Below, in pieces: positions 1 to 24,073 of a stretch of DNA of 64,000 nt (positions are counted from its first letter, which is position 1; each line of letters opens with the position of its first letter). The notes under the pieces are model-generated. The model made no database searches and was not told the DNA's origin. It saw only the letters and a list, made by a program, of their open reading frames with translations. Location of the stretch: positions 1-64,000 of the forward strand of contig NZ_JAJSAP010000006.1 in NCBI RefSeq assembly GCF_021729035.1, given 5' to 3'. The position numbers were made by a program, and so were the translations under genes. This DNA is from Microbulbifer sediminum. Its GTDB lineage: Bacteria > Pseudomonadota > Gammaproteobacteria > Pseudomonadales > Cellvibrionaceae.

Positions 1-8
1 AGCAGAGT

Positions 9-80
9 TTATAACAAGGTGGTCAATGGGACGCCAACTATGCTGTGCTCCGTTGCCGCCCATTACCACTGGCGTTAGGT
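9..80 (+). repeat. attC-like site of the preceding cassette
   Basis: The left arm contains ATAACAAGG near 11-18. The right arm ends in GGCGTTAGGT with GTTAGGT at 74-80, an exact match to the GTTRRRY core. The site is about 72 bp long and lies just upstream of the first gene, so it belongs to a cassette that starts left of the window. Confidence 0.75.
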
Positions 81-112
81 GAATGTCGTAAATCTATACA
101 AAGAGGTTAAAA

Positions 113-829
113 ATGAGAAAAATATTATTGCTTCCTGTAGTTCTCTTTATGGCATCTTGCGCATCCACAGATATGTCAGATGCACTACAAAACGGTAGGG
201 GAGCAATACCTACGCATCAGTTTTCGGATGCAAATACCGTTGAAGAAATTAGAAATTTAAGGCCACAAGCCCAGCCTCCGATTAACGTGGCTGTAATTCC
301 TCCTTACAGATGGAATTCTGTAGGTATTGAAGAAAGGAAAATAATAGAAAAATGGGGTGAAAAATTAAAAGATATTGGTTTTGTTAAATCTTTAGAAATA
401 GTGCCGCAGTCCTTGAGGCCGACTTGCAATTACCGAGCAGACAGTGGGTGCTATTTAAAAGAATCTAGATTAGCGGGTGCGCGCCTTGGGGCGGACGCAA
501 TACTATTTTTGAATGACAGTACCGTAACAGACCAGTACGTTAACCCAGCCAGTATTCTAAATCTAACTATTGTTGCAATGTGGTTTGTGCCTGCCCACCA
601 CAGGGATTCATATTCTATTTATGAAGCGTCCCTTTTTGATATAGATAATGGTTATCTCTACACTGTGGCTGAGGGTTACGGTGAATATAAAACTGTTCGG
701 CCTTACATGTACACCGATTGGAGCACTGGACAAGAAGAAGCTCGAATAGAAGCTCTCGAGAAACTGGGAGAAAAGCTATTTACTGTTGCGCAAGAAGCGG
801 TCAATAAAGACAAATCACCTAACAAGTAA
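113..829 (+). CDS. Cassette-encoded putative lipoprotein
   Basis: A 238-residue protein with a short basic N-terminus, a hydrophobic segment and a lipobox-like MASC at residues 13-16, so it is probably acylated on Cys16 and anchored in the envelope. The centre has a run around GARLGADAILFL and a hydrophobic stretch near residues 145-160. This loosely resembles envelope lipoproteins of the rhombotarget type, but I cannot confirm the family and give no function. The ATG at 113 is preceded by an AAGAGG ribosome site (about 100-105). The gene starts 33 bp after one attC site. Its last codons (Pro-Asn-Lys-stop) lie inside the next attC, so the element supplies the C-terminus. Codon use is AT-rich compared with the chromosomal genes to the right, consistent with lateral acquisition. 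Confidence 0.8.
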   Translation: MRKILLLPVVLFMASCASTDMSDALQNGRGAIPTHQFSDANTVEEIRNLRPQAQPPINVAVIPPYRWNSVGIEERKIIEKWGEKLKDIGFVKSLEIVPQSLRPTCNYRADSGCYLKESRLAGARLGADAILFLNDSTVTDQYVNPASILNLTIVAMWFVPAHHRDSYSIYEASLFDIDNGYLYTVAEGYGEYKTVRPYMYTDWSTGQEEARIEALEKLGEKLFTVAQEAVNKDKSPNK

Positions 830-874
830 AGCAAGCCGACGCTGAAAAGCGCGCGGCTTCTTTAGGCGTTATGG
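817..874 (+). repeat. attC-like site
   Basis: The left core ACCTAAC (817-823) matches RYYYAAC exactly. An imperfect hairpin follows (GCAAGCCG near 831 pairs with CGGCTTC near 854), ending in GGCGTTATGG. It is about 58 bp long, the shortest site in the array, and overlaps the 3' end of the upstream gene. Confidence 0.8.
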
Positions 875-877
875 GTA

Positions 878-1186
878 ATGCGAGATATGCAATTCGAGCG
901 GTCAAAATCCCTTTTAGTTCGGCGAATAGAAACTGTGATCCTGCTGCTATTCGGCGCCCTTGTGATTTTGAGTGTCTCAATGCTCGGAGGTTTCTGGTGG
1001 CTGTTTGAAGGCGGGAGCGAGTTTGAGGGAACCTGGTGTTTACTGATGATTACTGCTTTCGCTTTCAATCGCGTCCCCGTCGAAGGCGCTCGATGGTTTC
1101 ATCGAAATGAGGTGAAGTATCTCTATCTCCCCGTCTGGGGTATAAACGCAATTGCCTACCTCGCAGGGATGCTTATTGACCCATAA
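878..1186 (+). CDS. Cassette-encoded small membrane protein
   Basis: A 102-residue protein starting 4 bp after an attC site. It has a basic N-terminus (residues 7-16), one clear membrane helix (about residues 17-44, rich in Val, Leu, Gly and Trp), a second weaker hydrophobic patch near residues 53-65 and a third near 82-98. An internal ATG at 887 is an alternative start that would shorten it by three residues; no strong ribosome site separates the two. The stop codon sits in the left arm of the next attC. I do not recognise a family. Single-gene cassettes of unknown membrane proteins are common in chromosomal integrons. Confidence 0.65.
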   Translation: MRDMQFERSKSLLVRRIETVILLLFGALVILSVSMLGGFWWLFEGGSEFEGTWCLLMITAFAFNRVPVEGARWFHRNEVKYLYLPVWGINAIAYLAGMLIDP

Positions 1187-1267
1187 CAAATCAATTAAGT
1201 TCGTTCCCGGCCTGGCGGCCGTCCACCGGACGCCCTAGTCGGGCGCCGCTTATCATTGGCGTTAGAG
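1181..1267 (+). repeat. attC-like site
   Basis: An 87-bp site from CCATAAC (1181-1187) to GCGTTAGAG (right core GTT at 1261-1263). The interior has nested palindromes such as CGGCCTGGCGGCCG and GGACGCCCTAGTCGGGCGCC. It is closely similar to the next site at 1645-1729. Confidence 0.85.
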
Positions 1268-1270
1268 GCT

Positions 1271-1663
1271 ATGACTGAATACAGTATTTACGACATCATC
1301 GACCGTATTCGTTCCAGAACTGGAATGTATGTTGGTGAAGTAACGCTAAGCTCCATCAATGTATTTTTGACAGGCTACTGCGTCGCGATGAAAGATTCAG
1401 GTATACCTGATACGACGTCGCCAGCGTTTTTTCCCGATTTTAATATTTGGGTGAAAAATAAGTTGGGGTTTGATAGTTCCTGCATTGGCTGGTGCAGCAT
1501 GATCCTTGCTTTTTCTGTTAACCCGGAAGCGCCAATACTCAGAGATTCAATCGACGAGATTTGCCGAATGGCAAAGAAGCCAGAGCATGACAAATCCGTC
1601 GACCTTTTCTTTTCTCTAGTTGATGAATATAAGCAAAAAAATATCTCTAACAATTTGTTGTAG
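1271..1663 (+). CDS. Cassette protein with GyrB-like N-terminal motif
   Basis: A 130-residue protein from the ATG at 1271, four bases after the attC core. A TTG start inside the attC at 1256 is in frame but unlikely. The N-terminus (about residues 8-20) reads IDRIRSRTGMYVG. This resembles the RKRPGMYIG strand found near the start of type II topoisomerase ATPase domains, but the rest of the GHKL fold (Asn/Asp/Gly boxes) is absent. The remainder has aromatic segments (FFPDFNIWVKNKLGF) and an acidic/basic helical C-terminus. I believe it belongs to a recurrent family of uncharacterised integron cassette proteins, from memory of such sequences rather than a search. Function is unknown. The C-terminal codons run into the next attC. 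Confidence 0.75.
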   Translation: MTEYSIYDIIDRIRSRTGMYVGEVTLSSINVFLTGYCVAMKDSGIPDTTSPAFFPDFNIWVKNKLGFDSSCIGWCSMILAFSVNPEAPILRDSIDEICRMAKKPEHDKSVDLFFSLVDEYKQKNISNNLL

Positions 1664-1729
1664 GTCGTTCCGGCCTGCGGCCTCCACCGGACGCCCCTGG
1701 CGGGGCGCCGCTAAACAACAGCGTTAGAG
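1645..1729 (+). repeat. attC-like site
   Basis: An 85-bp site from TCTAACAA (1646-1653) to GCGTTAGAG (1721-1729). Its interior block CGGCCTGCGGCCTCCACCGGACGCC and the GGCGGGGCGCCGCT block are shared, with a few substitutions, with the site at 1181-1267. Confidence 0.85.
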
Positions 1730-1744
1730 TTTTGAGTGGTAATA

Positions 1745-2075
1745 ATGAAAAATAGTAATTTTCGGCCTATTGGTATTCGCTGGCTGGAAGCTCTACCAAG
1801 AAAAATTCGCTGCTCATGAGGCCCGATGGGGAGACTACGAAGTAGAGAAGGTTGGTCGTTCTGTAGATGGCATGGAAACAATCAAACTTTCTCCATCCAA
1901 GGAGCCAGTGAAATCCAGCCCGGCTTCATATCAAAAATTTAAATGTGATGGCCGGCAGCATTGTAGCCAAATGACATCCAGAGAAGAGGCGGTTTTCTTC
2001 ATAAGAAACTGCCCTAATACAAAAATGGATGGAGACAATGATGGTATTCCCTGTGAGAACGATTCCAGGTTCTGA
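1745..2075 (+). pseudogene. Excalibur-domain protein, frameshifted at its start
   Basis: The frame open to 2075 encodes a protein ending in an Excalibur domain (PF05901-type). It has FKCDGRQHC near the start of the domain and a C-terminal calcium-loop-like DGDNDGIPCE. Upstream, the only well-placed ATG (1745) is out of frame and stops after 24 codons. Between them lies a run of five A's. With four A's the frame would read M-K-I-V-I-F-G-L-L-V-F-A-G-W, an ideal N-terminal membrane anchor joined directly to the Excalibur frame. So either the gene has a one-base insertion or the base call is wrong. A TTG at 1770 could still start a shortened 101-residue product lacking most of the anchor. It lies between two attC sites as a single cassette. 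Confidence 0.7.
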
Positions 2076-2084
2076 GTCCGCCAA

Positions 2085-2170
2085 CTCTAACAATCACAGG
2101 CAGTATGCTACGGCCCTTCGGGCCTCCGCGGGACGTCTTACCTTGTGCGCCCCTGCTGTGGGCGTTAGGG
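2085..2170 (+). repeat. attC-like site
   Basis: An 86-bp site from CTCTAAC (2085-2091) to GCGTTAGGG (right core 2164-2170). The interior includes GCAGTATGCTACGGCCCTTC, GGGCCTCCGCGGGACG and a hairpin around GCCCCTGCTGTGGGC. The first part is nearly identical to the first part of the site at 2516. Confidence 0.85.
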
Positions 2171-2179
2171 CTCTTGGCT

Positions 2180-2521
2180 ATGAATCGATACTTTCTAGCA
2201 TCGATATTGCTCATTTCACATTCTTCTTTATCTGCAGATATAGCTCGAATTGAGTCCTTATTGGCACAAGGGAATGCGGAAATTGGAAAAGGTAAGTATG
2301 AAGTGGCTTACCATATCTGTACGCAAGGCATCGTTGATTTGGGCAACGCGTATGTAAGCCCAAGTGCCATTGACGATACAGGTCAAAAGCTAGTCCTTGC
2401 TGAGGTGAGCGCTGAAGAAGGAAATTATAAAGTGGCTTCAGCTGTAAGCTGTAGCTCACTGAATAGCAGGGTATCCCTACATAAAAGCAACAAAGAACGC
2501 AGCAGTGATATCAAGCCCTAA
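2180..2521 (+). CDS. Cassette-encoded small exported protein
   Basis: A 113-residue protein from the ATG at 2180, ten bases after the attC core. The same frame is open upstream through the attC, but that extension would be translated attC sequence. Residues 1-18 form a classical signal peptide (MNRYFLASILLISHSSLSA, then Asp). The mature part has a helical repeat-like stretch (IARIESLLAQGNAEIGKG, then KYEVAYHICTQGI) with two later Cys-poor segments and a basic tail. The pattern of a helix followed by a YE/YK-containing helix is reminiscent of a single TPR-like unit, but this is not firm. The final codons lie within the next attC. Confidence 0.7.
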   Translation: MNRYFLASILLISHSSLSADIARIESLLAQGNAEIGKGKYEVAYHICTQGIVDLGNAYVSPSAIDDTGQKLVLAEVSAEEGNYKVASAVSCSSLNSRVSLHKSNKERSSDIKP

Positions 2522-2659
2522 CAAGCGCAAGCAGTATGCTACGGCCCTTCGGGCCTCCGCGGGACGCCCAACGCTATGCACGTTTTGTGCGGGTCGCTGC
2601 GCTCCCAGTTTCGCACAAAATGTGCATAGCATTGGTCGCCCCTGTTACGGGCGTTATGT
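2516..2659 (+). repeat. attC-like site, long form
   Basis: A 144-bp site from CCCTAAC (2516-2522) to GCGTTATGT (2651-2659). It combines the left module of the site at 2085 with a long inner hairpin: GCTATGCAC/GTTTTGTGCG pairs with CGCACAAAA/TGTGCATAGC around a GGTCGCTGCGCTCCCA loop. It is the length of long Vibrio-type attC repeats. Confidence 0.85.
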
Positions 2660-2668
2660 ATTCGAGAA

Positions 2669-3028
2669 ATGACTGAACTTCAACGAGCTATTTATGCTTT
2701 GGCTTTAAGCCCAGAAATCCAGCTGGGGCTGTTTCGTGATTTCGTATGTAAAGGAGAAGAGCTGGTTCTGGATTTTGAGGCAGCTTATGCAGAAGGATTG
2801 TCTTTGAGTTTAGCCTCAGCTTCGCAACGCTTAGCATTTGACGAGCTTGATAAATATTTAGAGAGCCACTCTGGCACGCAGTTTCAAGAACTTTACATGG
2901 ATGATAGTCAACTATTTGATAATGTATTTTGGAGGCGAGTCAGGGTTCTGGCTAATCAGTGCATTTCATCAATGGGGTGGGAGTACCAAGCTCCGCCCAA
3001 GAGCGCCGCTATCTATGTCCGTGGGTAA
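2669..3028 (+). CDS. Cassette-encoded hypothetical protein
   Basis: A 119-residue, mainly acidic and predicted helical soluble protein from the ATG at 2669, ten bases after an attC core. There is no signal peptide or membrane helix. It has Leu/Ala/Glu-rich helices (residues 2-60), a short FWRRVRVLANQCI segment (about residues 87-99) and a Tyr/Pro-rich tail. I do not recognise a family and propose no function. The stop lies immediately before the next attC, as expected of a one-gene cassette. Confidence 0.7.
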   Translation: MTELQRAIYALALSPEIQLGLFRDFVCKGEELVLDFEAAYAEGLSLSLASASQRLAFDELDKYLESHSGTQFQELYMDDSQLFDNVFWRRVRVLANQCISSMGWEYQAPPKSAAIYVRG

Positions 3029-3031
3029 CAT

Positions 3032-3175
3032 ACATAACAAGGCGAGGCATTTCGTTCCGGCCCTGCGGGCCTCCACCGGACAGCTTACTTTGTGCACTTT
3101 ATGCGCAGGTCGCTTCGCTCCCATTTTTGCGCATAAAGCGCCCAAAGCAAGCTGCCGCTGCTCGCGGCGTTAATG
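3032..3175 (+). repeat. attC-like site, long form
   Basis: A 144-bp site from ACATAAC (3032-3038) to GGCGTTAATG (right core 3169-3175). It begins with the CGTTCCGGCC...CTCCACCGGAC module seen at 1181 and 1645, then carries an inner hairpin TTTATGCGCA/TGCGCATAAA around GGTCGCTTCGCTCCCA. That loop matches the one in the site at 2516. Confidence 0.85.
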
Positions 3176-3995
3176 TTAAGACTTACCCACGTTTAAAGAT
3201 GATTGACAGAAAACCTGGTGTTCGCCGATTCCTAGCTGAATGCTCAGGGAAGTCGGCAATTGCCGGACAGGTATGCATTCACGAAATTTGATATTGGTGC
3301 GATCCAGTAAGAGTTCCAGGTAGAATCTTAGGATTCAATGTACGATTGTTACGAGATAGAGCCGCCGCACCTTCGCTTTCTGGAGCCATACTTGGTGCAG
3401 GTTCCTGAGCGGGATTTTTAGCCTAGTTCTTATTTTGTGGAATCTCATGCCGGATAACAAGGCCATCGAATTCGTTACGGGCACGTAAGGCGTGGCCTGC
3501 ACTGAACTTCCTGCGCATTGCGTCGGCCGACGTCTATAGCGTCACCATAAGGGTTGGGGGGCAGTGCGTTATTATTAATAACCAGAAGTTAATTCTACTT
3601 GTAATTATTCAGTATATTTTCACCTTGATACACATAGATCTGTGAAAAAATATTGTTAAGGAGATATAGTAACCTTGGCCTCTGGATTCCACGGCTACCG
3701 GGTGCTGGCCCTTTGGGTGCGCTCTATCGCTTCGGTGTAGTCTGTGTAGGGCCGGGCAGGGCAGGGCAGGCTGCCAGAGGTGTCAGCGCCTTTGATATAA
3801 GGCTGCGAGAGAAGAGCTGCAGCAAATGTGGAGCAAGTTTGAGTGTTGAGCCCTATAGCTCTCGCAGGCAGATTGCGCCGGCTCCTTGAGGTGCCTCTCG
3901 GGGGTGCATGTGCTACTCTCGGCGCACAAGAACCGGACGAAAACCCCAAGCAAGCGGCGTTAAAAAATATCTATTCATTAGGCAGAAATTCTTGT
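3176..3995 (+). other. Cassette segment(s) without a convincing gene
   Basis: This is 820 bp between the last clear attC and the methyltransferase start. The only short frames are a 30-codon one at 3199-3291 and a Gly/Arg-rich 78-codon one at 3653-3889; neither looks coding. Two degenerate attC-like traces are present. One runs from CGGATAACAAGG (about 3452) to GTGCGTTATTA (about 3573). The other is a right end AGCGGCGTTAAAA at about 3955-3965, just before the methyltransferase. AT-rich sequence at 3575-3660 could hold a promoter. The stretch may be an ORF-less cassette followed by a second decayed one. Confidence 0.5.
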
Positions 3996-4616
3996 ATGAG
4001 TGAGAAAGGCCATTGGGAACATGTTTATAAGACCAAGGCGAGTGATGAGGTGAGCTGGTTCCAGCCACATGCGAAGACGTCTTTAGATCTTATAAAAAAA
4101 CTTGAGCCTGATCCTGAAGCGCACATTATGGATGTGGGTGGCGGCGCTTCATTGCTCGTGGATGACCTGATCGCTTCGGGATATCGTAATTTAAGTGTTC
4201 TGGATATATCCTCATCCGCTTTGGAGGTCACCCAAAAAAGGTTGGGCGTAGCGGCGAACAAAGTCCGTTGGATAGTGGAAGATGTTATACGGCTGAGTTT
4301 GCCTAAGCATTCTATTGATGTATGGCATGACCGGGCTGTGTTTCATTTTTTGACAACATCGGTGCAAAGGGATCAGTACGTAAAAACCGTATTGAATTCA
4401 GTAAAGCCGGGTGGGCATGTGATTGTGTCAACGTTTGCCACGGATGGCCCCGAAAAGTGCAGTGGATTACCCGTTCAGCGCTATAGCGCTGGATCCTTGC
4501 ACGATCAATTTGGAGAGCCATTTGTGCTGCTGGGCCATGAATACGAAAATCACCGAACGCCTTTCGGCACTGATCAGCATTTTATTTATTGCTACTGCCG
4601 GGTTGTAGATGCCTAA
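3996..4616 (+). CDS. Class I SAM-dependent methyltransferase
   Basis: A 206-residue protein from the ATG at 3996; the frame is open upstream but only through attC-like sequence. It shows the class I Rossmann-type signature: motif I IMDVGGGAS (about residues 44-52), an acidic end of strand 2 at LSVLD (Asp70), motif IV around DVWHDRAVFHF (about residues 109-119) and a post-motif VKPGGHVIVSTF (about residues 138-149). It begins GHWEHVYKTK with EVSWFQPH, typical of a small cytoplasmic methyltransferase family often annotated only as class I SAM-dependent methyltransferase. The substrate cannot be told from sequence. It has lower GC than the chromosome beyond 4.9 kb and lies at the end of the cassette array, so it is probably the terminal cassette. 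Confidence 0.85.
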   Translation: MSEKGHWEHVYKTKASDEVSWFQPHAKTSLDLIKKLEPDPEAHIMDVGGGASLLVDDLIASGYRNLSVLDISSSALEVTQKRLGVAANKVRWIVEDVIRLSLPKHSIDVWHDRAVFHFLTTSVQRDQYVKTVLNSVKPGGHVIVSTFATDGPEKCSGLPVQRYSAGSLHDQFGEPFVLLGHEYENHRTPFGTDQHFIYCYCRVVDA

Positions 4617-4957
4617 CCGCCAGTGTGTCACTGACATAACCGTTGGCGCTCGGTTATTTAACCCAGCTTTATGCTGAGTTCCAGCGCAGGGACGCGCTCG
4701 CGGGCATGTGCTGCCAGGCCGGATAGCACCGCCCGCAGATCTACTATCCAGCGCGCTCGAAATTAGCAAGTGCAGTGGTTTCAGCAAAGCTTGGCCTTAT
4801 GTGTTGTCGTCTTGATACTGGAGGGCGACCCGAGCGGGAGCAGAGAGGCACAGGCGCAATTAGGTGTAAAGGCAGGCCTGGCAGAGAGGCTGCGGGGCAT
4901 TCCGCTTCCCGGGGCGTGATATGCAAGAATTGCCGGGTCCATCAGGGATGATACGCT
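4617..4957. other. Non-coding junction between array and chromosome
   Basis: A 341-bp stretch. The methyltransferase stop overlaps GCCTAAC, an exact RYYYAAC-type left core, but no matching GTTRRRY right core follows at a normal distance; only CCGTTGGCG near 4641 is seen. A small inverted repeat AACCG...CGGTT lies at about 4638-4655. I see no gene. It may be a truncated terminal attC plus native sequence. Confidence 0.4.
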
Positions 4958-5434
4958 ATGTTTGGGACAGCTCATATAATCTTCGCAGTCGCCGCTCTTG
5001 CGATCGGTGCCCTCGTTTTTCTGCAAAAAAAGGGTGGCGAGAACCACCGAATACTGGGTTACCTGTATAGCGCTGCACTGTTATTGGCGAATCTGAGTGC
5101 ATTGCTGGTATACGAGGACTCGAAAGGCCCGGGTCCTTTCCATGTGCTGGCTTTGGTAAGCCTGGCGACTTTAAGCGCAGGGTTTGTTCCCGCGCTTTTG
5201 CGCAGCCCCCGAAATACCTGGATGTTGTATCACGCCTACTTCATGAGCTGGTCTTATGTGGGCCTGGTCGCGGTCGGGGTTGGGCAGTTCGCTACGATGC
5301 TTGCATTGTTTCCCGGTTTCGTTGCGGTTGGCCTGCCGGCTTTAGTAATCGCTGTTGGCGGGGGAGTGTTGATCCACAAGCAGGTGCCGCGTGCCCTGGT
5401 AGACCAAAGCAGACGATCAGTGAAGCCTGAATAG
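4958..5434 (+). CDS. DUF2306-like integral membrane protein
   Basis: A 158-residue protein with four predicted membrane helices (about residues 5-22, 34-53, 61-80 and 96-140, the last possibly two). The N-terminal His in GTAHIIFAVAAL, the KKGGENHRILGYLY loop and HVLALVSL after helix 2 resemble the DUF2306 family of small membrane proteins with conserved histidines. Function of the family is unknown. The ATG at 4958 follows AGGGATGATACGCT with a weak AGGGA ribosome site. It is the first gene of native base composition after the cassette array. Confidence 0.7.
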   Translation: MFGTAHIIFAVAALAIGALVFLQKKGGENHRILGYLYSAALLLANLSALLVYEDSKGPGPFHVLALVSLATLSAGFVPALLRSPRNTWMLYHAYFMSWSYVGLVAVGVGQFATMLALFPGFVAVGLPALVIAVGGGVLIHKQVPRALVDQSRRSVKPE

Positions 5435-5497
5435 CGGCTACAATGTGAACCTCATGGTTACCCAGTGAAGCCATGTTGGCGTAAACGGGGCAGGGCG

Positions 5498-5878
5498 ATG
5501 GCACTCAAAGAAGAAATAATAAGGCGAGAGAAAGCATTACTGCGCTTTGAGGTTAGAAGATCGCCTGGGGAGTTAACAAAACTGCTCTCAGCGGATTTCA
5601 GGGAAGTCGGTGCTGGCGGGGCCTATTTTGGTCTTGATGAAGTCCTGGCCTGCTTACCTGAGGGAAAAGGTTGGTCTGCCATGACCCGGGACTGGGAATG
5701 TCGCCAGCTGGCGGACGACATCGTGCAGACAGTTTATCGGGCTTTTATTGTCAATGACGGGGACGGCTCTGGAACCTTTTCCCGCAGAAGCTCACTGTGG
5801 AGGCTGGAAAACGGGTGCTGGAAAATGGTTTTTCACCAGGGCACCAGGGTTGACCCGTTTGAGCTCCAGCCTTCATGA
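5498..5878 (+). CDS. NTF2-like / DUF4440-type protein
   Basis: A 126-residue protein from the ATG at 5498, preceded by a GGGGCAGGG ribosome site. An in-frame GTG at 5465 would add 11 residues but has no ribosome site. The pattern is that of the small cone-shaped NTF2/SnoaL fold used by DUF4440 proteins: an N-terminal helix (IIRREKALLRFEVR), LLSADFREVGAGGAYFGLDEVL, then antiparallel strands ending in SSLWRLENGCWKMVFHQGT. These proteins are often small hydrolases, isomerases or binding proteins; no specific function can be assigned. It lies 63 bp after the DUF2306-like gene on the same strand. Confidence 0.75.
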   Translation: MALKEEIIRREKALLRFEVRRSPGELTKLLSADFREVGAGGAYFGLDEVLACLPEGKGWSAMTRDWECRQLADDIVQTVYRAFIVNDGDGSGTFSRRSSLWRLENGCWKMVFHQGTRVDPFELQPS

Positions 5879-5996
5879 GGTGGTACCGCACTGAGCTGGC
5901 CGGTAATTGTTCCGGGTGGAAGGCTACTGGCCGGATATGCTTGAATGCCCCTATATCATGATATCGCTGTAATTGTTTCGTGAGGATTTGTACAGG

Positions 5997-6617
5997 ATGC
6001 CAGAATGCGGTTGCGGGGCGGGGCAGGCGGAGAAGCTCGAGAGAAGGACGCTGGTGCTGCTGTTGGTCATTAACGGCGGCATGTTTGTCATTGAGTTGCT
6101 GCTGGGATGGCTGGCGCAATCCACGGGTCTGATTGCCGATTCCCTCGATATGCTGGCGGATGCCGCGGTATACGGCTTGGCGCTTTATGCCGTAGGCAGG
6201 GGGGTGCTTCTGCAGGCAAGGGCGGCACAGGTCAGTGGTGTACTTCAGGTAATTCTCGGGCTGGGTGTATTGTTTGAGGTGTTGCGCAGGCTCCTGTTTG
6301 GCAGTGAGCCGCAAAGCCTGCTGATCATGTCCGTTGGTACCCTTGCCCTGCTGGCCAATATTACCTGCCTGGTGTTGATATCGCGGCACAGGGACGGGGG
6401 CGTACATATGCGCGCATCCTGGATATTTTCCACCAACGACGTCATCGCCAACCTGGGTGTGATTACTTCTGGAATCCTGGTGGCTGTTGTTGGCAACCGT
6501 TTCCCCGACCTGGTTGTGGGCACCATTATTTCACTGGTGGTGGTTCGCGGCGGGATCAAGATCCTGCGGGAAGCGAAAGAGGCACGGGACTCGGCGCTGT
6601 CCGCCCAAGGGGAGTAA
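5997..6617 (+). CDS. Cation diffusion facilitator-like transporter
   Basis: A 206-residue protein from the ATG at 5997, with an N-terminal CGCG motif (residues 4-7) that could bind metal. A TTG at 5973 is in frame. About six membrane helices are predicted. Helix 2 carries ADSLDMLADA (two Asp four positions apart, the usual CDF metal-site spacing) and helix 5 carries STNDVIANLGVI in the place of the second CDF motif. The long cytoplasmic C-terminal domain of typical CDF exporters is missing, so it belongs to the short transporters annotated as cation transporter. It probably exports a divalent metal by proton antiport across the inner membrane; the metal is unknown. Confidence 0.75.
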   Translation: MPECGCGAGQAEKLERRTLVLLLVINGGMFVIELLLGWLAQSTGLIADSLDMLADAAVYGLALYAVGRGVLLQARAAQVSGVLQVILGLGVLFEVLRRLLFGSEPQSLLIMSVGTLALLANITCLVLISRHRDGGVHMRASWIFSTNDVIANLGVITSGILVAVVGNRFPDLVVGTIISLVVVRGGIKILREAKEARDSALSAQGE

Positions 6618-6683
6618 CCGGGTGCAAAGGCCGTTCAAAATCCGCCGGATAGCGGGCAGGTGCCTGCGCGGGCCTGCAGTGCC

Positions 6684-7784
6684 CTAGAAAGCGTAAGTGA
6701 CTGCCCCGAAGCCCTTGATGAGCCGGTCATCATCGACAATGGGGCTGTCGGTAATATCACTGTCCAGGTTTTCCACCGCGATATTGAGTACCACGCGCCA
6801 GTTCTCGGTCAGTTCGTAAAAGCCACCCAGGCCCAGTTCGACGGTCACGGCGCTCCCGACATTGTAGGCGGGGCGGCCGGGCAGGGCGGCAGAGGCCGGT
6901 ACACCGAAATCGTAATTCGCCAACTCGCTGCTGAGCCAGCTGACGCCGAGTTGCGGCGCCAGGCGCAGGTTGCCGAACTGAAAGCCCCGGGATACCCGGG
7001 CCACGGCGGTGCCGCCACCGATCTGGTCGAGCACGTCGTGTTCATAGCCCAGGTCGAACTCGAAGCCACTGGGGCCCTCGTAGACCAGGCCGAGCCCCGC
7101 CATCAATGTGCTGTCGCGGTCGCCAAGGCCCTTGAGAAAGTCACTGTCGTCTTCCTCGTAAGCACCCACCCGGTAGGAGGCGCTCAGCGCCACGCGCAGA
7201 TCGTCACTGCCCAGTATCCCGTAGCGCAGGCTTGGGCCCACCCACTGCAGTCGCTCACCGAAGTAGGTGATGGCGGGTATGGGCTGGATGACGCTGGCAT
7301 CCGACCCCACATAGGGGCTGCCGCGACCGATCACGCCAAGGCCCACGCCCCACTGGCCGGCATCGCCGAGGATGCTGTAAAGCGCGATATTGACGTTGTT
7401 GCTGTCGTTCCGCCGTACGGAGAAGCTTGCCTGCCGGAAGCTGGGCGGTCCCTTGGGCTGGTAGTTGTTGGACAGGCCCACCGGCTCACGGGGAATACCG
7501 ATGAAGTTCCTGTCCAGGGCGCGGTTGTTGTTCTCGTCCAGGTAAGCGAGCACCGCCACTTCCCCGTCAGGGGCGTCCGGTATCACATAGGTTTCGCCGG
7601 GCTGGATGGTGTAGCGTACTTCCCGCGCGGCACCGCGGAATTTGCCGAATGCATCCGGGTCGTCGTAGACCTGCAACACCAGGGTGCCCGCCGGGGGCGG
7701 GTTCTGCAAACGGACCGTGATGTCAGCAGCGGCTGCGGTCCCGCACAGCAATAGCAGTGGCAGGGTGGCGGCAGTTGTTTTCAT
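6684..7784 (-). CDS. DUF2141-MipA/OmpV fusion outer-membrane protein
   Basis: A 366-residue protein with a signal peptide (residues 1-20, ending TAAAA). Residues about 21-135 match a DUF2141 domain: VLQVYDDPDAFGKF, then LAYLDENNNRALDRNFIG with the typical GIPREPVG and GPPSFRQASF. The rest is a MipA/OmpV-type beta-barrel: GVGLGVIGRGSPYVGSD, FGERLQWVGPSLRYGIL, repeated amphipathic strands and a terminal aromatic residue (AVTYAF). MipA/OmpV proteins sit in the outer membrane; in E. coli MipA is linked to murein synthesis scaffolds, in Vibrio OmpV is an antigen. The start is the ATG at 7784. It is transcribed away from the RND efflux operon, sharing a 246-bp intergenic region, so co-regulation is possible. 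The two-domain fusion is unusual to me. Confidence 0.8.
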   Translation of the reverse strand: MKTTAATLPLLLLCGTAAAADITVRLQNPPPAGTLVLQVYDDPDAFGKFRGAAREVRYTIQPGETYVIPDAPDGEVAVLAYLDENNNRALDRNFIGIPREPVGLSNNYQPKGPPSFRQASFSVRRNDSNNVNIALYSILGDAGQWGVGLGVIGRGSPYVGSDASVIQPIPAITYFGERLQWVGPSLRYGILGSDDLRVALSASYRVGAYEEDDSDFLKGLGDRDSTLMAGLGLVYEGPSGFEFDLGYEHDVLDQIGGGTAVARVSRGFQFGNLRLAPQLGVSWLSSELANYDFGVPASAALPGRPAYNVGSAVTVELGLGGFYELTENWRVVLNIAVENLDSDITDSPIVDDDRLIKGFGAVTYAF

Positions 7785-8030
7785 GGGCGTACAACGTCCC
7801 TGGATCAGTGGCCAATGCTTTCCTTTACGAGCATCGTAGATAAACAGATGAACCTGGCAAGGTGTGCCGTGCGGAAAGTTCAGTGACCCGCTGGCATGTT
7901 TCTGCCGTATGCATCCGTTGCCGCACCGGCGGGTGTTGGTCGCATGTATCCGACGGATGCAAAGGTGAACAGGCCGCAGTAAGCTGGGCGTTACGTTCGC
8001 CGATAATGACAAGAGACTACTGGAGATCCC

Positions 8031-9101
8031 TTGAATACAGCTGACGAAGGGCGCAGCCGCCCGTGCCGCGCGGCCATGACCAGCGCCGTACTCCTGGCCC
8101 TGACTAGTTTGTTCGGATGTGAACCGGCCAGCGAGGCAGCCGGGGCGCGGGGAGAGGGCCGGGCCCAGCCGGTGGTGACAGAGGCCGTGCTCTGGCAGCC
8201 ACGACTGGTGCGGATTGAGGCCGTGGGCACCTCCCGCGCCGATAAAAGCGTCACCCTGTACCCGGAAGTGAGCGGTGAGGTGGTCGAGGTCACGCTGAAG
8301 GCCGGGGACCGGGTCGAGGCGGGCCAGGCCATTGTGCGGCTGGACGAGCGCGACCAGCGGCTCGCGGTTGAGCTGGCCCGGGTGGAACTGCAAGACGCAA
8401 AACGCCTCTACAGCCGTTACCGGCGGACGCAGGGGTCGGGTGCCGTCACCGAGAATGCCGTCGACGATGCCCGCAGCGCGGTGGAGCGCGCCAGGCTGAA
8501 CCTGGATCGGGCCGAGGTGGCACTGGACCACCGCTCGATCGAGGCACCCTTTGACGGGTATGTCGGTATTACCAACATTGATCCGGGGGCCCGGGTCGAT
8601 CCCTCTACGGCAATCACCACCATCGATGACCGCAGCACGCTGCTGGTGACGTTCCAGGTGCCGGAGCTGTTCCTGGGCCAGATCGACCAGGGGCAGGACA
8701 TTGCCGTCGCCACCTGGGCCAACGGCGACCCGCAACACCGGGGGGAGGTCATCGATATCGACAGCCGGGTGAGCCCCGACACGCGGACCTTCACGGTCCG
8801 CGCGCGGGTCGATAATCGTGGCGACCGGTTGCGCCCGGGCATGAGTTTCCGGGTCACCATGAAGCTGGCCGCGGGCCGTTACCCGGTGGTGCCGGAGGTG
8901 GCCCTGCAGTGGGGCAACGATGGCGCCTTTGTGTGGGCCGTGGAGGGTGGCAAGGCGCGGCGGGTCCCGGCCACCGTCGTGCAGCGCCTCCAGGGTGCCA
9001 TCCTGGTGGACGCGGACCTGCCCGAGGATATGGCGATTGTGACCGAGGGTACCCAGCGCATGCGTGAGGGAATGCCGGTAGCCAACATGGCGAGGTTGTA
9101 A
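8031..9101 (+). CDS. RND efflux periplasmic adaptor (MFP)
   Basis: A 356-residue membrane-fusion protein of the HlyD/AcrA type. Start chosen as the TTG at 8031 because GGAGA lies six bases upstream; the ATG at 8076 is an alternative. A hydrophobic segment ending LFGC (about residue 30) suggests an N-terminal anchor or lipoprotein signal, though Phe at the -3/-2 region is not ideal. Domains in order: a biotinyl-lipoyl-like half (VSGEVVEVTLKAGDRVEAGQ), a helical hairpin (residues about 105-155), the second lipoyl half (IEAPFDGYVGITNIDPGARV) and a beta-barrel domain (DIDSRVSPDTRTFTVRARV). It links the inner-membrane pump encoded 3 bp downstream to an outer-membrane channel, which is not encoded here. 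Confidence 0.92.
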   Translation: MNTADEGRSRPCRAAMTSAVLLALTSLFGCEPASEAAGARGEGRAQPVVTEAVLWQPRLVRIEAVGTSRADKSVTLYPEVSGEVVEVTLKAGDRVEAGQAIVRLDERDQRLAVELARVELQDAKRLYSRYRRTQGSGAVTENAVDDARSAVERARLNLDRAEVALDHRSIEAPFDGYVGITNIDPGARVDPSTAITTIDDRSTLLVTFQVPELFLGQIDQGQDIAVATWANGDPQHRGEVIDIDSRVSPDTRTFTVRARVDNRGDRLRPGMSFRVTMKLAAGRYPVVPEVALQWGNDGAFVWAVEGGKARRVPATVVQRLQGAILVDADLPEDMAIVTEGTQRMREGMPVANMARL

Positions 9102-9104
9102 GCC

Positions 9105-12100
9105 GTGGGCAGCGACAATACTCCCGGCGTCCATATTCAGCCGCACCGCAGTGACCTGGCCTCCCTGGCAATCCGCCGGCCGGTGTTGGTGCTGGTGCTC
9201 AACCTGCTGATTGCCATTGCCGGTATCGCCGCCTTCAGCGCGGTGGAAGTGCGAGAGCTCCCCGACGTGGATGTGCCGGTGGTGTCGATCCGCGGCGAAA
9301 TGCCCGGCGCCTCCCCGGAAACCATGGATTCCGAGGTTACCAGCATTGTCGAGGGGGCGGTGGCCAGGGTATCCGGGATCAGGAATATCCAGTCTTCCAG
9401 CGAGGAAAACAACTTCCGTATCCACGTGGAGTTCAATGCCAATGTCGACCTGGATACTGCCGCCGCGGATGTGCGCGAGGCGGTGAACCAGGCCCAGCGG
9501 GACCTGCCCGAGGACGTGGAGCGGCTGGTGGTGGTCAAGGCCGCCGACCAGCCGGAGCCGGTGATCAACCTGGCGGTGACCAGTGACCGGCTGCGCGACG
9601 AGGCACTGACCTACATTATCGAGAAGGACATTGTGCCGGAGCTGATCTCGATACCCGGTGTGGCCGACGTGCCCATCTCCGGGCAGCGCCAGCGGGTGTT
9701 GCGGGTGGTGCTGGACCCGCTGCGCCTGACCAGCTTCGGCCTGTCGGTGAGTGATGTGGCGGCGGTGCTGGAGCAGGCGCCACTGGACGTGCCCTCGGGC
9801 AGTTTCCGCTCGGAAGACCAGCAGTTGCTGGTGCGTACCGACGCGTCTGCAGTGACCGAACAGCAGGTGCGGGATATCGTGATCAGCGGCAGTACCCGCA
9901 TCGGCGATGTGGCGCATGTGGCGTTCGGGCCCGAGGATGTGCAGTCGCTGGTGTACCTGAACGACCGGCCGGTGATCGGCCTGGGCATCGTGCGCCAGGC
10001 CCAGAGCAACACCATCGATATCAGCGAACAGGTCCGGCGGGTGGTGGGGAACCTCAACCAGCGCTTCGACAACCTCGAGATCACCGTGACCGAAGACCGG
10101 GCGGTGTTTATCGAGGGTTCGGTGCGTGAGGTGGTCACCAGTCTCTGTTACACGGTTGCCATCGTACTCGCCGCCATCTGGCTGTTCTTCGGTAATATCC
10201 GCACCACCTTGGTACCCAGTACCGCTATTCCCATTGCCCTGGTGGGCACCCTGGCGGGCATCTGGCTGATGGGTTTTTCCATCAATATCCTCACGCTGCT
10301 GGCGATTGTGCTGGCCACGGGCCTGGTGGTGGACGATGCCATCGTGGTACTGGAGAACATCCAGCGGCACCGCGCCCAGGGGCTGGGCGCCCGTGCGGCG
10401 GCGGTGCTGGGCACGCGTCAGGTCATCTTTGCGGTACTGGCCACCACGGCGGTACTGGTCAGTGTGTTTATCCCCATCTCGCTGCTGCCCAGCACCGCCG
10501 GGCGCATGTTCCGGGAATTCGGCCTGGTGCTGGCCACGGCGGTGGCACTGTCCTCGGTGGTGGCTCTGACCCTGGTACCCGTGCTCACGGCGCGCATCGC
10601 CGGCAACCGTGGGGAGCACCCGCTCTACCATCGCCTGGCGGGTATTGGTGGGCGTATCGCGAACGCCTACCAGCGCAGCCTGGCCACCTGCCTGCGCTAC
10701 GCGCGGGTCAGTTTTGGTGTGGCGCTGGCGCTCGCCGTCGGGGCGGGCGGGCTCTACCTGGTGCTGGGCAAGGAACTGCTGCCATCCGAGGACCGCGGGC
10801 TGATCCGCGTGGACGCCACCGGCCCGGACGGCGTGGGGCAAAACTATATCGCGCGTCAGGCCGAACATATCGAGGATGTGGTAAGGCCGCTGGTGGCGCG
10901 GGGCGATGCCACCGATATCATCACCTTGATCGGGCGCTATGACCCCAACCGCGCCCGGGTAACCCTGCCGCTGGCGAACTGGGAAGAGCGGGAGACCTCA
11001 CAGCAGGCCCTGGCCGCAGAGATTGCCGGGCCGCTGGCGCAAATCCCCGGTGCCCGTATCCGCGTCAGCAGCCCCAACAGCCTGTCCCTGCGAGGCGGTG
11101 GGGGCGGCATCGAAGTGGCCCTGGTGGGCAACGATTACGGACGCATTTACCAGGCATCCCGGGAAATGGCCCGGGCCATCGAGGACCGCCTCCCGCACCT
11201 GAGCCAGCCGGATATCAGTTACCGGCCCACCCAGCCACAGCTGTCGATCGAGATCGATCGCCGCCGCGCGGCAGACCTGGGCGTGCCGCTGCAAAATATC
11301 GCCGTTACCCTCAGGGCGGTGGTCGACGGGCTCGATGTGGTGGACCTGAACGTGGGTGACCAGGCCGTGCCGATCATGCTGGAGGCTGCCAACAGTACGG
11401 TCTCGTCGCCGGAAGACCTGGTGAACCTCTACGTGAAAAGTGAGAGTGGCAGCCTGCTGCCGTTGTCCAGCATGGTCAGCCTGCGCGAGGAAAGTGTGGC
11501 CGCCGAGCTGGACCGCCACGGCCAGCGCCGCGCGATCGAGATCGATATGGGCCTGGCCCGGGGTTATCCGCTCGCCAGCGCGGTCGAAGAGCTGCGCGCC
11601 CTTGGCAGCGAGATACTGCCGGACGACGTGGGCATCCTGTTCTTGGGCGAGGCCGATACCCTGGAGGAGAGTTCCCGGGAAGTGGCGATGACCTATGCCA
11701 TTGCCGCGCTGGTGGTGTTCCTGGTGCTGTGCGCCCAGTTTGAAGGGATCAGCAGCGCCCTGATTGTGATGACCACCGTGCCGTTCGGGTTGGCGGCGGC
11801 GGTGTACGCCCTGTTCCTGACCGGCACCACTGTGAATATCTTTTCCCAGATCGGCCTGGTGATGTTGATTGGCCTGATGGCCAAGAACGGCATCCTGCTG
11901 GTGGAGTTTGCAGACCAGCTGCGCGACCGCGGCCACAGCGTATACGACGCGATTACCGAAGCGGCGCGGGTGCGCCTGCGGCCCATTGCCATGACCATGC
12001 TTTCCACGGTGCTCGGTGGGCTGCCGCTGATTCTCAGCAGTGGGCCTGGCGCCGAGGCGCGCAGCGCCATCGGTTGGGTAATGTTCGGCGGCCTGGGCCT

Positions 12101-12224: not shown

Positions 12225-12250
12225 GTTGGGCTCGGCATTTTGTTATCCGG

Positions 12251-12282
12251 CCGGCGGTGGTTCTCCTGTCGCCGGATTTTTT
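12251..12282 (+). terminator. Rho-independent terminator after RND pump
   Basis: CCGGCG (12251-12256) pairs with CGCCGG (12270-12275) across a 13-nt loop, followed by ATTTTTT. Outer bases ATCCGGC/GCCGGAT allow an alternative stem. It lies 26 bp after the pump stop codon and before the next gene. Confidence 0.65.
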
Positions 12283-12341
12283 GAGCAGACCTGGATCCGC
12301 CGCCAGGAAAGGAACTGTCAGGATGATACCGGGAGGTGACC

Positions 12342-15484: not shown

Positions 15485-15504
15485 CGTAACAACCGGGATT
15501 ACGC

Positions 15505-16606: not shown

Positions 16607-16680
16607 CGGGCTTTTCCTTTCGGCCATTAGTAAAAGCACTCTACGCAGGGCCCGAATACCCGGATCAGGCGGGACCGGGA

Positions 16681-21400: not shown

Positions 21401-22630
21401 TCAGGTGAGGGAGACCGACTGCCCGGGCAGTGGCAGTTGTGGCAGGTTTGAAACTGCCTGGATCAGGCCTTCCTTGTAGAGCTCCGCCGCCGCCTCCCTT
21501 TCACCCAGGGCGTGCAGCAGTCGCGCCAGCTCCGCGGAAGTGGCCGGGTCTGAGCGCAGGATGAGGCTTTTTTCGAAGTGCTGCCGGGCCTTGCCCCACA
21601 ACTCGTTGCGCAGGCACAGTCGCCCCAGGCAGGTATAGAGGTCGGCATTCTCGCCGTACTCTTTCAGCCAGCCGTCGGCCACTGTCAGCTGGGCGCCGGC
21701 ATCGGCGCCGGTCAGGCAACCGTAGAGGCGGCCCAGGTCCGCGCGCCACTCGTGGTTGAGGATCCAGCGCAGATGCTTTTCCGCCTCTTCGTCCCGGTCG
21801 ACCCGGTGCAGTTGCTCGGCGTAGAGTCCGCGCAGGTCCATATTGCGCTGCCAGCGGCCGCTGAAACTCTGCCAGATATCTGACAGTTTCTCTGCGTTAC
21901 GGCGCGCGCCGGCTTCCAGCAGTTGGTGCTGGTAGACCTCCTGCTCCAGCTGCTGCATTTCCTCTTCGGGCATATTGGCGTGCTTTTCCAGGTCCGGCAG
22001 CAGGTCGCGCAGGTGGTTCCAGTCTTCCAGTTGGTAGTAGGCCTGCTTGAGCATCTGCAGCACCGCCGGGTGCTTGGGTTCCACCTGTTTGGCGCGCTCG
22101 AGGCTGGCGATGCATTGCTCGTAGTGCTTGTCCAGCAGCTGCATCCGCGCCTGGCTCAGGGCCACCGCCAGCCGCGTATCCTCGCCGCTGGCCTCGGCCT
22201 TGGCCAGCAGCTCGTTGGCCTCGTCCCGGTAGCCCAGTTCAAAGGCGCTGCGGGCGGCTGCGAGGTAGTTGATCAGTGGGGCGTCGGAGCGTGGAGCGGA
22301 TTTCAGCAGCTGGCGCCGGGCCCGGGCCCAGTTGCCCTCCATAAATTCCACCAGTCCGTTGGTGAGCCGGCGTCGCGCCACCCGGGTACGGCCAAAACGG
22401 ATGCGGCTGACCCCGCCCTCGACACCCCGGAACAGGCTGCGCAGCAACCAGAACACGAGAAACAGCAGCAGCATCGCCAGGGCGACAGCGCCCACTGCGA
22501 CCCACAGGTTCATTTCAATGCGCTTGCCGCCCACGGCCAGCAGCATATAACCCGGGTAGGTGCGGATCATCTCGGTCAGGAAGGCCCCGAAGAGCAGGAA
22601 TGCCAGCGCGGAGAAGAGAAAGCGCTTCAC
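21401..22630 (-). CDS. hemY: HemY, TPR membrane protein of heme cluster
   Basis: A 409-residue protein, near the usual length. Two N-terminal membrane helices (about residues 4-24 and 41-67) flank a short loop (YPGYMLLAVGGKRIEMNLW) typical of the HemY_N domain; TPR-like helices follow to the end (for example YEQCIASLERAKQVEPKHPAVLQML). It is the enterobacterial/Pseudomonas HemY and not the Bacillus protoporphyrinogen oxidase of the same name. Its role is a scaffold linked to late or mid tetrapyrrole synthesis, not well defined. Its ATG overlaps the 3' end of hemX by four bases, so the pair is translationally coupled at the end of the hemC-D-X-Y cluster. Confidence 0.92.
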   Translation of the reverse strand: MKRFLFSALAFLLFGAFLTEMIRTYPGYMLLAVGGKRIEMNLWVAVGAVALAMLLLFLVFWLLRSLFRGVEGGVSRIRFGRTRVARRRLTNGLVEFMEGNWARARRQLLKSAPRSDAPLINYLAAARSAFELGYRDEANELLAKAEASGEDTRLAVALSQARMQLLDKHYEQCIASLERAKQVEPKHPAVLQMLKQAYYQLEDWNHLRDLLPDLEKHANMPEEEMQQLEQEVYQHQLLEAGARRNAEKLSDIWQSFSGRWQRNMDLRGLYAEQLHRVDRDEEAEKHLRWILNHEWRADLGRLYGCLTGADAGAQLTVADGWLKEYGENADLYTCLGRLCLRNELWGKARQHFEKSLILRSDPATSAELARLLHALGEREAAAELYKEGLIQAVSNLPQLPLPGQSVSLT

Positions 22631-23955
22631 GATGTTGCCCCCCTGTCCTCAGCTGGCCCCGGACTGGTGTTATGCAGTCGCTCGATATAGTCCTGCAGTG
22701 CTTTCTGGGAGGCATTCAGGTCGGGCAGTTGTGCCTCGATGGGCTCCTTGGCCAGTGCCTCGAGTTCGCGCACCAGGGCATCGCGGCGCTGGTTGGCGAT
22801 GCCGTAATCCAGCAGCAGCTGGCGCGCACTCTTCAGGGAGTCGCGGTAGACGGTGCTGTCTGCACGCAATACCGCCAGCTGGGCTTGCTCCATGTTCAGC
22901 CGCAGGCTCTGGCGGAAACGTGCCTCGCTCTGCGGCGATAGCAATACCGGATCGATATCGCCATCGCGAATGCGCACCGAGTCTTTCAGGAAGGAAGTAA
23001 AGTTGTCCCAGCTGCGTTCCCAGGCCGGCTGCGCCGCGTCTGCGGTTTTTTCCTCGGCCTTTTCGGTTGGGCTTCCCATCGCCAGGTCGAATTCAGGCTG
23101 GATGCTGGCTTTGACCATCTGTTCCTGCAGCGCGCCCAGGCGCAGGTACAGACCCTGCTGGTCGATATCTTCCGCCATTTTCAGCGCGGTAATATCCCGT
23201 GCCAGTTGCTGCCGGACGCCATACAGGTCAGGGCGGTCCACGCGGCGCAGGATCTGGTCCACCTCCTCGAGCAATCCCATGGCTGCGCGGCTGTCCCGCT
23301 CGAGCAGCAGGCGCTGGTTGGCCAGTCGCAGCAGGTAATCCGCCTCCGCCAGCTGCCAGTCGGTGCGGCTGACATTGCCCAGCTCGCCCAGGCGGCTGGA
23401 TTGCGCGGACAGTTCCCGCTGCAACTGGGCCAGCTGCTGGCGCATCTGGGCCATGGCCGTGCGCTGCTGGTTTAACTCCTGGATCATATTGGCCATGGCC
23501 TGCTGGGTGGCCTGTGAATCGGTTGGCGAGCCGGACTGGCCCGGTGCTGGCGAGACCTGGCCCCCGGGGCTTACCGGCTGTGGTGGCGCGGTTTGGTCGG
23601 GGGTGGGAAGGCTGGCGTCGGCAGCGGGCGCGTTATCGGCCTTGGGCGCCTCTGCGGTTGCCTCCTGTTCACCGCTGTCGCCCCCGGGCAGCAGTTCCAG
23701 GGCCTGATACACACCCGACTGGAATTGCGGCCAGTTATACCAGGCCCAGGCGCCTACGCCGCCGAGTATCGCGGCGAACAGGAGCAGCCAGAGCCAGCTG
23801 GTGCCGCGACCGGAGCGGTCGGCTTTCTTGCTGCCCCCGTCGCCGTTTTTCTTGTCCGCGGCCGCCTTGGCAAAGTTGCTCTTGGGCTCCGCCTTTTCCG
23901 TGACCACGGGCACATCTTTGTGATCCCCGGACTTTTTTGAGTTGTCGTCAGTCAT
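22627..23955 (-). CDS. hemX: HemX-like membrane protein
   Basis: A 442-residue protein. The cytoplasmic N-terminus is charged and Lys-rich (residues 1-50), one membrane helix follows (about residues 53-72, SWLWLLLFAAILGGVGAWAW), then a Pro/Gly/Ala-rich linker (about residues 85-155) and a periplasmic coiled-coil region (MANMIQELNQQRTAMAQMRQ onward). This is the gammaproteobacterial HemX, historically annotated as uroporphyrinogen-III C-methyltransferase. No SAM-binding motif is visible, so that activity is unlikely for this protein. It lies between hemD and hemY, 118 bp from hemD. Confidence 0.9.
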   Translation of the reverse strand: MTDDNSKKSGDHKDVPVVTEKAEPKSNFAKAAADKKNGDGGSKKADRSGRGTSWLWLLLFAAILGGVGAWAWYNWPQFQSGVYQALELLPGGDSGEQEATAEAPKADNAPAADASLPTPDQTAPPQPVSPGGQVSPAPGQSGSPTDSQATQQAMANMIQELNQQRTAMAQMRQQLAQLQRELSAQSSRLGELGNVSRTDWQLAEADYLLRLANQRLLLERDSRAAMGLLEEVDQILRRVDRPDLYGVRQQLARDITALKMAEDIDQQGLYLRLGALQEQMVKASIQPEFDLAMGSPTEKAEEKTADAAQPAWERSWDNFTSFLKDSVRIRDGDIDPVLLSPQSEARFRQSLRLNMEQAQLAVLRADSTVYRDSLKSARQLLLDYGIANQRRDALVRELEALAKEPIEAQLPDLNASQKALQDYIERLHNTSPGPAEDRGATS

Positions 23956-24073
23956 GAGCTGGCAGGCACTGCAGTGAAAAATGTCGTGAAATTATAGCGA
24001 CTCGCGGCATCGTTTATACGATGTCTGACGCGGATTTGAAATTTTTTACCGCTATCGGGGCGGCGAGCACCGC

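Follow-up and report, generated by a model that had tools for sequence, protein, structure and literature searches.

The first contig positions examined here, from Microbulbifer sediminum (assembly GCF_021729035.1, contig NZ_JAJSAP010000006.1), fall within an array of integron cassettes, and the question raised by this locus is where that array begins and which integrase serves it. The window analysed is the whole stretch made up of the first 64 kb (64,000 nucleotides) of this contig, called C12 below and one of the 15 contigs of the genome; its position 1 is a contig end. We consider it likely that the seven attC sites at the left edge of the window are the distal sites of an array which starts behind ubiD, has no integrase gene (intI) of its own, and is one of several "satellite" platforms fed by an integrase (IntI) encoded at a distance.

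The seven attC sites all lie on the plus strand, between positions 9 and 3175, with single short plus-strand genes between them (Table 1). The first attC test was a scan for arm complementarity (a stricter earlier arm scan missed most of the sites), which reported eight sites in positions 1-4800, the eighth (3455-3571) being degenerate, and none on either strand in the rest of the window. When shuffled sequences were scanned, 20 Markov shuffles of positions 1-4800 yielded one match in total and three shuffles of positions 5001-64000 yielded one. A covariance model, R2, was trained on 21 of the 31 arm-scan sites from outside the window, with the window sites held out and the other 10 left out of the alignment as doubtful, redundant or identical to the first site of the window. 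R2 recovered all seven sites (E values 3e-18 to 6e-6), and its sole other match with E<10 in the 64 kb was at 45069-45143 (E 0.43). An arms-only model, R1, run on positions 1-20000, recovered one window site (819-874) at E<0.01; it was too weak and R2 was used instead. No Rfam family matched in the window at gathering scores. In all six successive pairs of the seven sites the R' arm is the reverse complement of the R'' arm of the next site, as expected for inserted cassettes, and this rule is broken at the pair involving the degenerate site. The shuffles and the R2 E values rule out chance palindromes as the source of the sites.

By its series of attC sites in one orientation and its cassette boundaries, the region is an integron cassette array. 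An initial annotation, made from the letters alone, had counted at least seven attC sites, and the arm scan, the held-out model and the six arm pairings bear this out; the covariance search which it had proposed returned all seven at E<=6e-6. The difference in base composition that it had reported is also seen, the G+C content being 0.43-0.50 across positions 1-4000 and mostly 0.60-0.68 past 6 kb. Its extension of the array to position 4616 has to be shortened: the recognisable array ends at 3175, and the methyltransferase gene at 3996-4613 has no recognised attC alongside. As for the two findings which it had named as speaking against an integron, a lack of attC matches and a fixed gene order in distant species, the attC matches are strong, and for two of the cassette genes related genes are known from elsewhere, either at different loci or within arrays of other species. 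Pfam matched a single cassette protein of the six (Excalibur); its gene (1770..2075) has a counterpart of 92% amino acid identity in a different array (L154) of the relative Microbulbifer sp. YPW16, and one of 64% over 64 aa in an intI locus of Pseudoalteromonas (L121).

The head of the array was located by synteny. On the complete chromosome of YPW16, orthologs of the window flank and of the start of contig C15 enclose one attC array (2.765-2.770 Mb). In M. sediminum, the start of C15 carries attC sites which read outward off the contig, and ahead of them lies ubiD, identified by NCBIfam as 4-hydroxy-3-polyprenylbenzoate decarboxylase. In addition, the stretch at 21.4-23.5 kb of the window lies downstream of ubiD in 23 of 39 ubiD loci compared (37 fetched, our own and that of YPW16), 16 of the 23 being free of an array. 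Because of the YPW16 synteny and the recurrence of this stretch near ubiD, the window is probably the distal end of an integrase-less ubiD array. That the window holds the distal end only was thus correctly read by the initial annotation, and the array head lies by synteny at the C15 start (ubiD). The integron with intI and attI which it had placed directly to the left of position 1 is not supported, since synteny joins the window to a C15 start without intI, as in YPW16; of the two elements to be sought there, an attI-like junction is present on C15 and intI is absent.

Three intI matches over the cut-off were obtained in the genome, at the starts of contigs C11, C8 and C7, and none of them falls on the C15 or C12 ends. 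The C7 gene (C7:1006-1944) has an internal TAG; those of C11 and C8 are apparently intact by inspection, and the C11 IntI is 90% identical to a YPW16 IntI. A tblastn search with three IntI (E<=1e-15) found intI at none of the 39 ubiD loci, YPW16 included. The array is therefore not a complete integron, as no intI stands beside the head at the C15 start or at its YPW16 ortholog (the C15-C12 join being made by synteny); with at least two attC sites and no neighbouring intI, it falls among the clusters of attC sites lacking integron integrases (CALIN). The array-head junction on C15 reads GATACAAAT/GTTAAGC (the slash marks the start of the first cassette). Over 75 bp it aligns to the attI beside the C8 intI with a score of 0.73, compared with at best 0.48 for the other intI-adjacent attI sites and at most 0.51 for any other site. 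Because of this resemblance the C8 IntI would be the likeliest partner of the window array. Thirteen contig ends of the genome, C3 included, carry an attC match at or near the end, and for this reason cassette arrays probably broke the assembly at these ends.

Arrays away from intI were found across the genus. The attC matches of YPW16 are located in at least about ten separate places, two of them with intI, and eight of eight further complete genomes gave at least 30 to 81 attC matches each (lower bounds, with 150 candidates scored per genome). At 14 of the 18 array heads examined in our own genome and YPW16, a 7-mer showed where the first cassette begins. Twelve of the 14, both beside intI and away from it, read GAATAA(A)ACTG/TTA or close variants, and two (C8 and C15) read GATACAAAT/GTTA. 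The former motif occurs 54 times in 14 Microbulbifer genomes (2 occurrences of the reversed pattern as a control), all 14 of which have intI over the cut-off. By position, nine of the 54 sites are about 350 bp from intI and 45 are not beside intI. These orphan sites are followed by attC on the same strand in 42 of 45 cases, often behind housekeeping genes: 33 of the 36 orphan sites among those fetched, and 9/9 in our own genome and YPW16, read from positions, one of which (C7:301294) rests on a single weak attC match (E 0.0068).

Outside our own genome and YPW16 there are 42 motif sites, of which 40 were fetched with 4 kb each and two, beside intI, were left out. An attC lies downstream on the same strand at 37 of the 40, upstream at none and on the other strand at none; 29 of the 37 have at least two attC within 4 kb and eight have a single one. 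The junction 7-mer is the complement of the R'' of the first attC in 30 of the 37, versus 75 of 1332 mismatched pairs. Mismatches at three loci (L233, L235 and L237), not counted in the 30, are due to a first cassette without a gene, the attC of which R2 missed. Orphan sites resemble intI-adjacent attI up to about 75 bp upstream of the junction (L254 against L253, score 0.97), the attI type labels having been assigned from alignments by inspection. Judged by these alignments, the junctions at the C15 head and in other genomes are attI-like.

When the 1.5 kb upstream of 44 orphan sites was examined, the longest open reading frame (ORF) shared the strand of the array at 39 of them. Of 19 upstream proteins chosen for an NCBIfam search 18 were matched, some weakly or in part (the protein at L237 had no match); they include succinate-CoA ligase alpha, class I fumarate hydratase, ParE, ParC, ribonucleotide reductase beta, GroEL, aconitase B, PutA, UbiD, RhlE and inorganic pyrophosphatase, as well as products outside housekeeping (a CusA-type pump, a HipA-like kinase, a flavoprotein and a sigma factor). 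The same gene stands upstream in several species in the case of ubiD and of sucD, the latter in G008, G049 and G030 (by inspection, one of them checked). Since the upstream ORFs share the strand of the array and are often housekeeping genes, these arrangements suggest that read-through from the upstream gene could express the cassettes.

The ubiD loci allowed platforms with and without an array to be compared. An attC array is present at 20 of the 39, and at 19 of these 20, the exception being our own genome, a conserved ORF of about 130 aa precedes the first cassette. The ORF is present at none of 18 testable array-free loci (Fisher p 1.1e-9, calculated without phylogeny; L213, with 595 bp after ubiD, was excluded from these). 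It lies with its array some 6 kb from ubiD at L198, and contains an internal stop at L203, which was omitted from alignment A3; possible remnants of its start were seen by inspection at two array-free loci (L219 and L228). The first cassette begins 86-107 bp past the ORF stop in 18 of the 19 loci (exact 7-mer), and at the nineteenth, L158, inspection revealed a GTTAGAT junction at the matching place with ATCTAAC some 50 bp on. The array label requires eight changes on the ubiD tree. Members of the ORF family (E<=1e-3) were not found in a set of loci around intI from named genomes. The protein has no Pfam match over the cut-off and no usable relative in fold and structure searches; its structure was predicted with confidence, at a pLDDT (predicted local distance difference test) of 92.3 and a pTM (predicted template modelling score) of 0.61.

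At the ORF-bearing ubiD loci the ORF is followed by 16-bp palindromes, which are spaced by about 20 bp and abut the attI-like junction; their consensus is close to TGNCTAGATMTAGNCA. A repeat motif was trained on 17 repeat-type sites; because the repeat type had been assigned by eye before the training, only tests outside the training set are independent. Three to five matches were found beside the ORF end in 19/19 ORF-bearing ubiD loci, including 14/14 outside the training set. At these 14 loci there were 58 matches in 1,820 bp beside the ORF, versus 39 in 165,811 bp elsewhere. Of 61 spacings between repeats, 52 were 18-21 bp. No match was obtained at nine intI-adjacent attI or at our own ubiD locus; three of 19 array-free ubiD loci had one match each, and two in all were seen across the 39 attI sites classed outside the repeat type. 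Repeat-type sites make up 17 of 56 compared sites, at other loci too, and none of the 17 is beside intI. They occur in eight genomes, all with the ORF at ubiD, while three genomes lacking the ORF (G000, G014 and G043) have no repeat-type site among the sites compared.

The ORF family was also found in 21 of 341 genomes of the order, in 11 of 131 genera. At 22 ORF loci, two of them Microbulbifer, attC sites lie downstream on the ORF strand in 13 cases and upstream or on the opposite strand in none; four of the 22 loci are cut off by a contig border less than 900 bp away, and R2, being trained on Microbulbifer, may overlook attC of distant relatives. At 10 of the 13 loci with attC, a junction 7-mer agrees with the first attC. 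No intI (E<=1e-5) was found in the fetched flanks of the 22 loci, and ubiD is upstream of the ORF only in the two Microbulbifer loci. At the 20 loci of other genera, 37 repeat matches were counted in 6,866 bp by the ORF end, versus 10 in 53,998 bp elsewhere.

The explanation which we favour for this organisation is that a satellite platform consists of an attI-like site that lacks intI and often follows a housekeeping gene, 3' of it and in the same direction. Cassettes would be inserted there, at the orphan G/TTA position, and exchanged by an IntI whose gene lies at another place in the same genome; in the case of the window array this would probably be a C8-type IntI. The product of the 130-aa ORF might bind the 16-bp repeats and mark or activate the site for IntI, or else control the transcription of the cassettes. 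Tentatively, we propose a new kind of platform, in which a small protein would bind phased palindromes by an attI-like site and target a distant IntI to it at several loci; a module of ORF, repeats, attI-like site and cassettes, with no intI nearby, is present at differing loci in several of the order's genera, and would let one integrase serve many dispersed arrays, often behind housekeeping genes.

Near-identical cassettes shared between arrays fit an exchange in trans, as judged from the sequences. In G008, a gene-less cassette of about 403 bp (99.3-100% identity) is first at three orphan attI sites and is also present inside the ubiD array; in every case its edge coincides with the junction. 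Two stretches, of 620 and 572 bp, are common to the ubiD array and the intI array of G030 at 97% identity. The first cassette of the array on our contig C4 lies within a 466-bp stretch 99.4% identical to part of a YPW16 array behind groEL, and a 528-bp stretch at the C14 array end has a counterpart of 98.1% identity in a further array of YPW16; the flanks of the arrays of the two genomes are mostly 82-96% identical. The comparison behind the G008 and G030 findings covered matches of at least 90% identity and at least 300 bp, 6 of the 28 being an insertion sequence. The gene-less cassette of G008 (about 400 bp at L233, L235, L237 and L229) ends in an unusual attC with a TTTA core and might carry a promoter; the ubiD platform of YPW16 starts with a 5' end similar to it.

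It has been proposed that arrays lacking intI are integrons in a degraded state, and ordinary decay would make each orphan attI the leftover of a complete integron that lost its intI, with nothing acting in trans. Such a loss may be under way on C7, whose intI is broken by the internal TAG and where YPW16 has an intI-less array behind groEL, with an attI-like head of a different type. At the ubiD loci (E<=1e-15) and the orphan sites, however, no intI remnant was found near the head: three IntI queries gave no similarity below E 0.03 in up to 1.5 kb upstream of 44 orphan sites, and remnants were rejected on this ground, although a strongly decayed one may escape tblastn. The orphan junctions are also intact, the same cassette stands first at three of them in G008 at 99-100% identity, and repeat-type heads are never adjacent to intI (0/17 assigned; 0 repeat matches at the nine intI-adjacent attI), so that we regard decay as a rather unlikely general account. 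We find it less probable still that the arrays were seeded by cassettes at non-classical (attG) sites, the conserved junction being a preferred attG sequence. One crossover position is indeed common to many loci here, and CALINs at seven distinct Xanthomonas loci are reported in the available portion of PMC12444791, which cites Loot 2024 on attG insertion. Against this, the similarity of orphan sites to intI-adjacent attI extends up to about 75 bp upstream, far past a short core, and some orphan sites stand behind the same gene in several species (ubiD, sucD).

A further scenario, which we hold to be very improbable, is that the window array is the distal end of the intI integron of C7, C8 or C11, connected to it through contigs lost in assembly. 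Joins are certainly missing, with eight array ends pointing off contigs and five inward (by inspection); the first 77 bases of the window fork to C3, and the C8 flank matched none of the 10 YPW16 array loci fetched. In YPW16, however, the window flank is joined through an array to the ubiD end corresponding to C15, without intI; at 23 of 39 loci ubiD has the 21.4-23.5 kb stretch close by, and the C7 and C11 flanks match other YPW16 arrays. Misassembly as the sole source of dispersed arrays was likewise rejected, as they are present in the complete genome of YPW16 too.

Several observations weigh against the satellite platform reading itself. The C15-C12 join is made by synteny, and the assembly leaves it undecided because contig C3 has the first 77 bases of the window. 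Our own genome has neither the 130-aa ORF nor the repeats, and its head is of another attI type; its ubiD platform seems, from the alignments, to have swapped a repeat-type head and ORF for a C8-type attI. When phylogeny is taken into account, the ORF and the array agree in five of six independent pairs with none opposite (p 0.0625). In the other genera attC is downstream at only 11 of the 20 ORF loci, and repeats lie beside the ORF at 12 of 20. The GAATAA(A)ACTG/TTA motif is not universal, since G003 and G010 have intI and no motif match, and three of the 40 fetched motif sites (L242, L244 and L265) have no attC. Finally, ordinary homologous recombination could also give identical cassettes at several loci.

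Among known systems, sedentary chromosomal integrons share with these platforms the attC sites, the single cassette orientation and the attI-like G/TTA junction; they differ in that here there is no intI at the locus or at 45 of the 54 attI-like sites of the 14 genomes. The CALINs of IntegronFinder likewise have two or more attC without a neighbouring intI, whereas the arrays described here have an attI-like head, fixed loci across species and near-identical cassettes common to other arrays. The available text on Saccharophagus degradans 2-40 (PMC2386152) reports that a core integron is accompanied by five satellite clusters at other places, built on an identical 140-bp repeat, a satellite site being suggested to arise by transposition of the repeat; the combination of core and distant clusters is similar, whereas attI, a small ORF and phased repeats do not figure in that text. 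The CALINs of Xanthomonas (PMC12444791), which lie at conserved loci, are also arrays off the intI locus at recurrent positions, for which the accessible part of the paper mentions no attI-like head or associated ORF. Delta-attI sites in cassettes of mobile integrons, as far as the available part of PMC12901181 describes them, are attI-like sites besides the one by intI, there in resistance cassettes of mobile integrons and here at chromosomal array heads. A literature search by title and abstract, mostly without subscription papers, returned no description of intI-less attI platforms heading arrays or of such an ORF.

According to the part of their paper available (PMC9024848), the IntegronFinder authors consider that, class 1 apart, attI has been described only poorly; here, exact cassette junctions define dozens of attI-like sites. 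If the satellite reading is true, many intI-less arrays of the genus would be ordered platforms, each with an entry site of its own and supplied in trans. Often they would stand in line behind genes such as groEL, sucD or nrdB, whose transcription could reach the cassettes. This would change how integrons are counted and how cassette expression is viewed, and would tie a new protein family to the choice of attI.

Table 1. Features of the window (positions in the 64,000-nucleotide stretch)
Feature	Position	Strand	Evidence or remark
Contig end	1..77	+	77-mer also the end of contig C3 (reverse); assembly-graph fork inside attC
attC site 1	9..80	+	R2 E 7.2e-07, arm scan
Cassette gene, 238-aa lipoprotein-like	113..829	+	similarity to TIGR04179 (rhombotarget lipoprotein) below cut-off only
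attC site 2	817..874	+	R2 E 3e-06, R1 E 3.4e-04
Cassette gene, 102 aa	878..1186	+	no family match
attC site 3	1181..1267	+	R2 E 5.9e-06
Cassette gene, 130 aa	1271..1663	+	no family match
attC site 4	1645..1729	+	R2 E 5.2e-07
Cassette gene, Excalibur domain	1770..2075	+	PF05901 E 9.3e-11
attC site 5	2085..2170	+	R2 E 6.1e-12
Cassette gene, 113 aa	2180..2521	+	75% identical gene in another species' ubiD array (L198)
attC site 6, long form, 144 nt	2516..2659	+	R2 E 3.3e-18
Cassette gene, 119 aa	2669..3028	+	no family match
attC site 7, last recognisable	3032..3175	+	R2 E 1.7e-17
Degenerate attC-like site	3455..3571	+	found by arm scan, not by R2; violates the cassette rule
Class I S-adenosylmethionine (SAM) methyltransferase, accessory	3996..4616	+	PF08241 E 1e-09; no recognised attC bounding it
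Three accessory genes (DUF2306, DUF4440, cation efflux) ahead of the conserved flank	4958..6617	+	
First stretch conserved in place in YPW16, right of its ubiD array	6685..8687		6685-7731 at 77%, 8114-8687 at 83%
HemY-like gene and neighbour	21404..23991	-	TIGR00540

To the right of the recognisable array, positions 3176 to about 6680 hold accessory DNA of lower G+C content, with the methyltransferase, DUF2306, DUF4440 and cation-efflux genes and no clear attC; these are possibly old cassettes whose attC sites have decayed. In a defence-system scan of seven window proteins the only match, of the methyltransferase to mad2, was set aside as generic. For the DUF2306 gene, five of the 31 genomes of the genus searched, its own included, gave a match at E<=1e-10, and a gene 63% identical to the cation-efflux gene is situated near another YPW16 array (L153). 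In YPW16, six different arrays each have a copy of one insertion sequence within the GTT core of an attC (L158:9348-11157, L151, L154, L156, L157 and L160), with 99.8-99.9% identity between the copies; it is an attC-targeting element, and the copy at L158 contains, by inspection, a transposase-like ORF of 518 aa.

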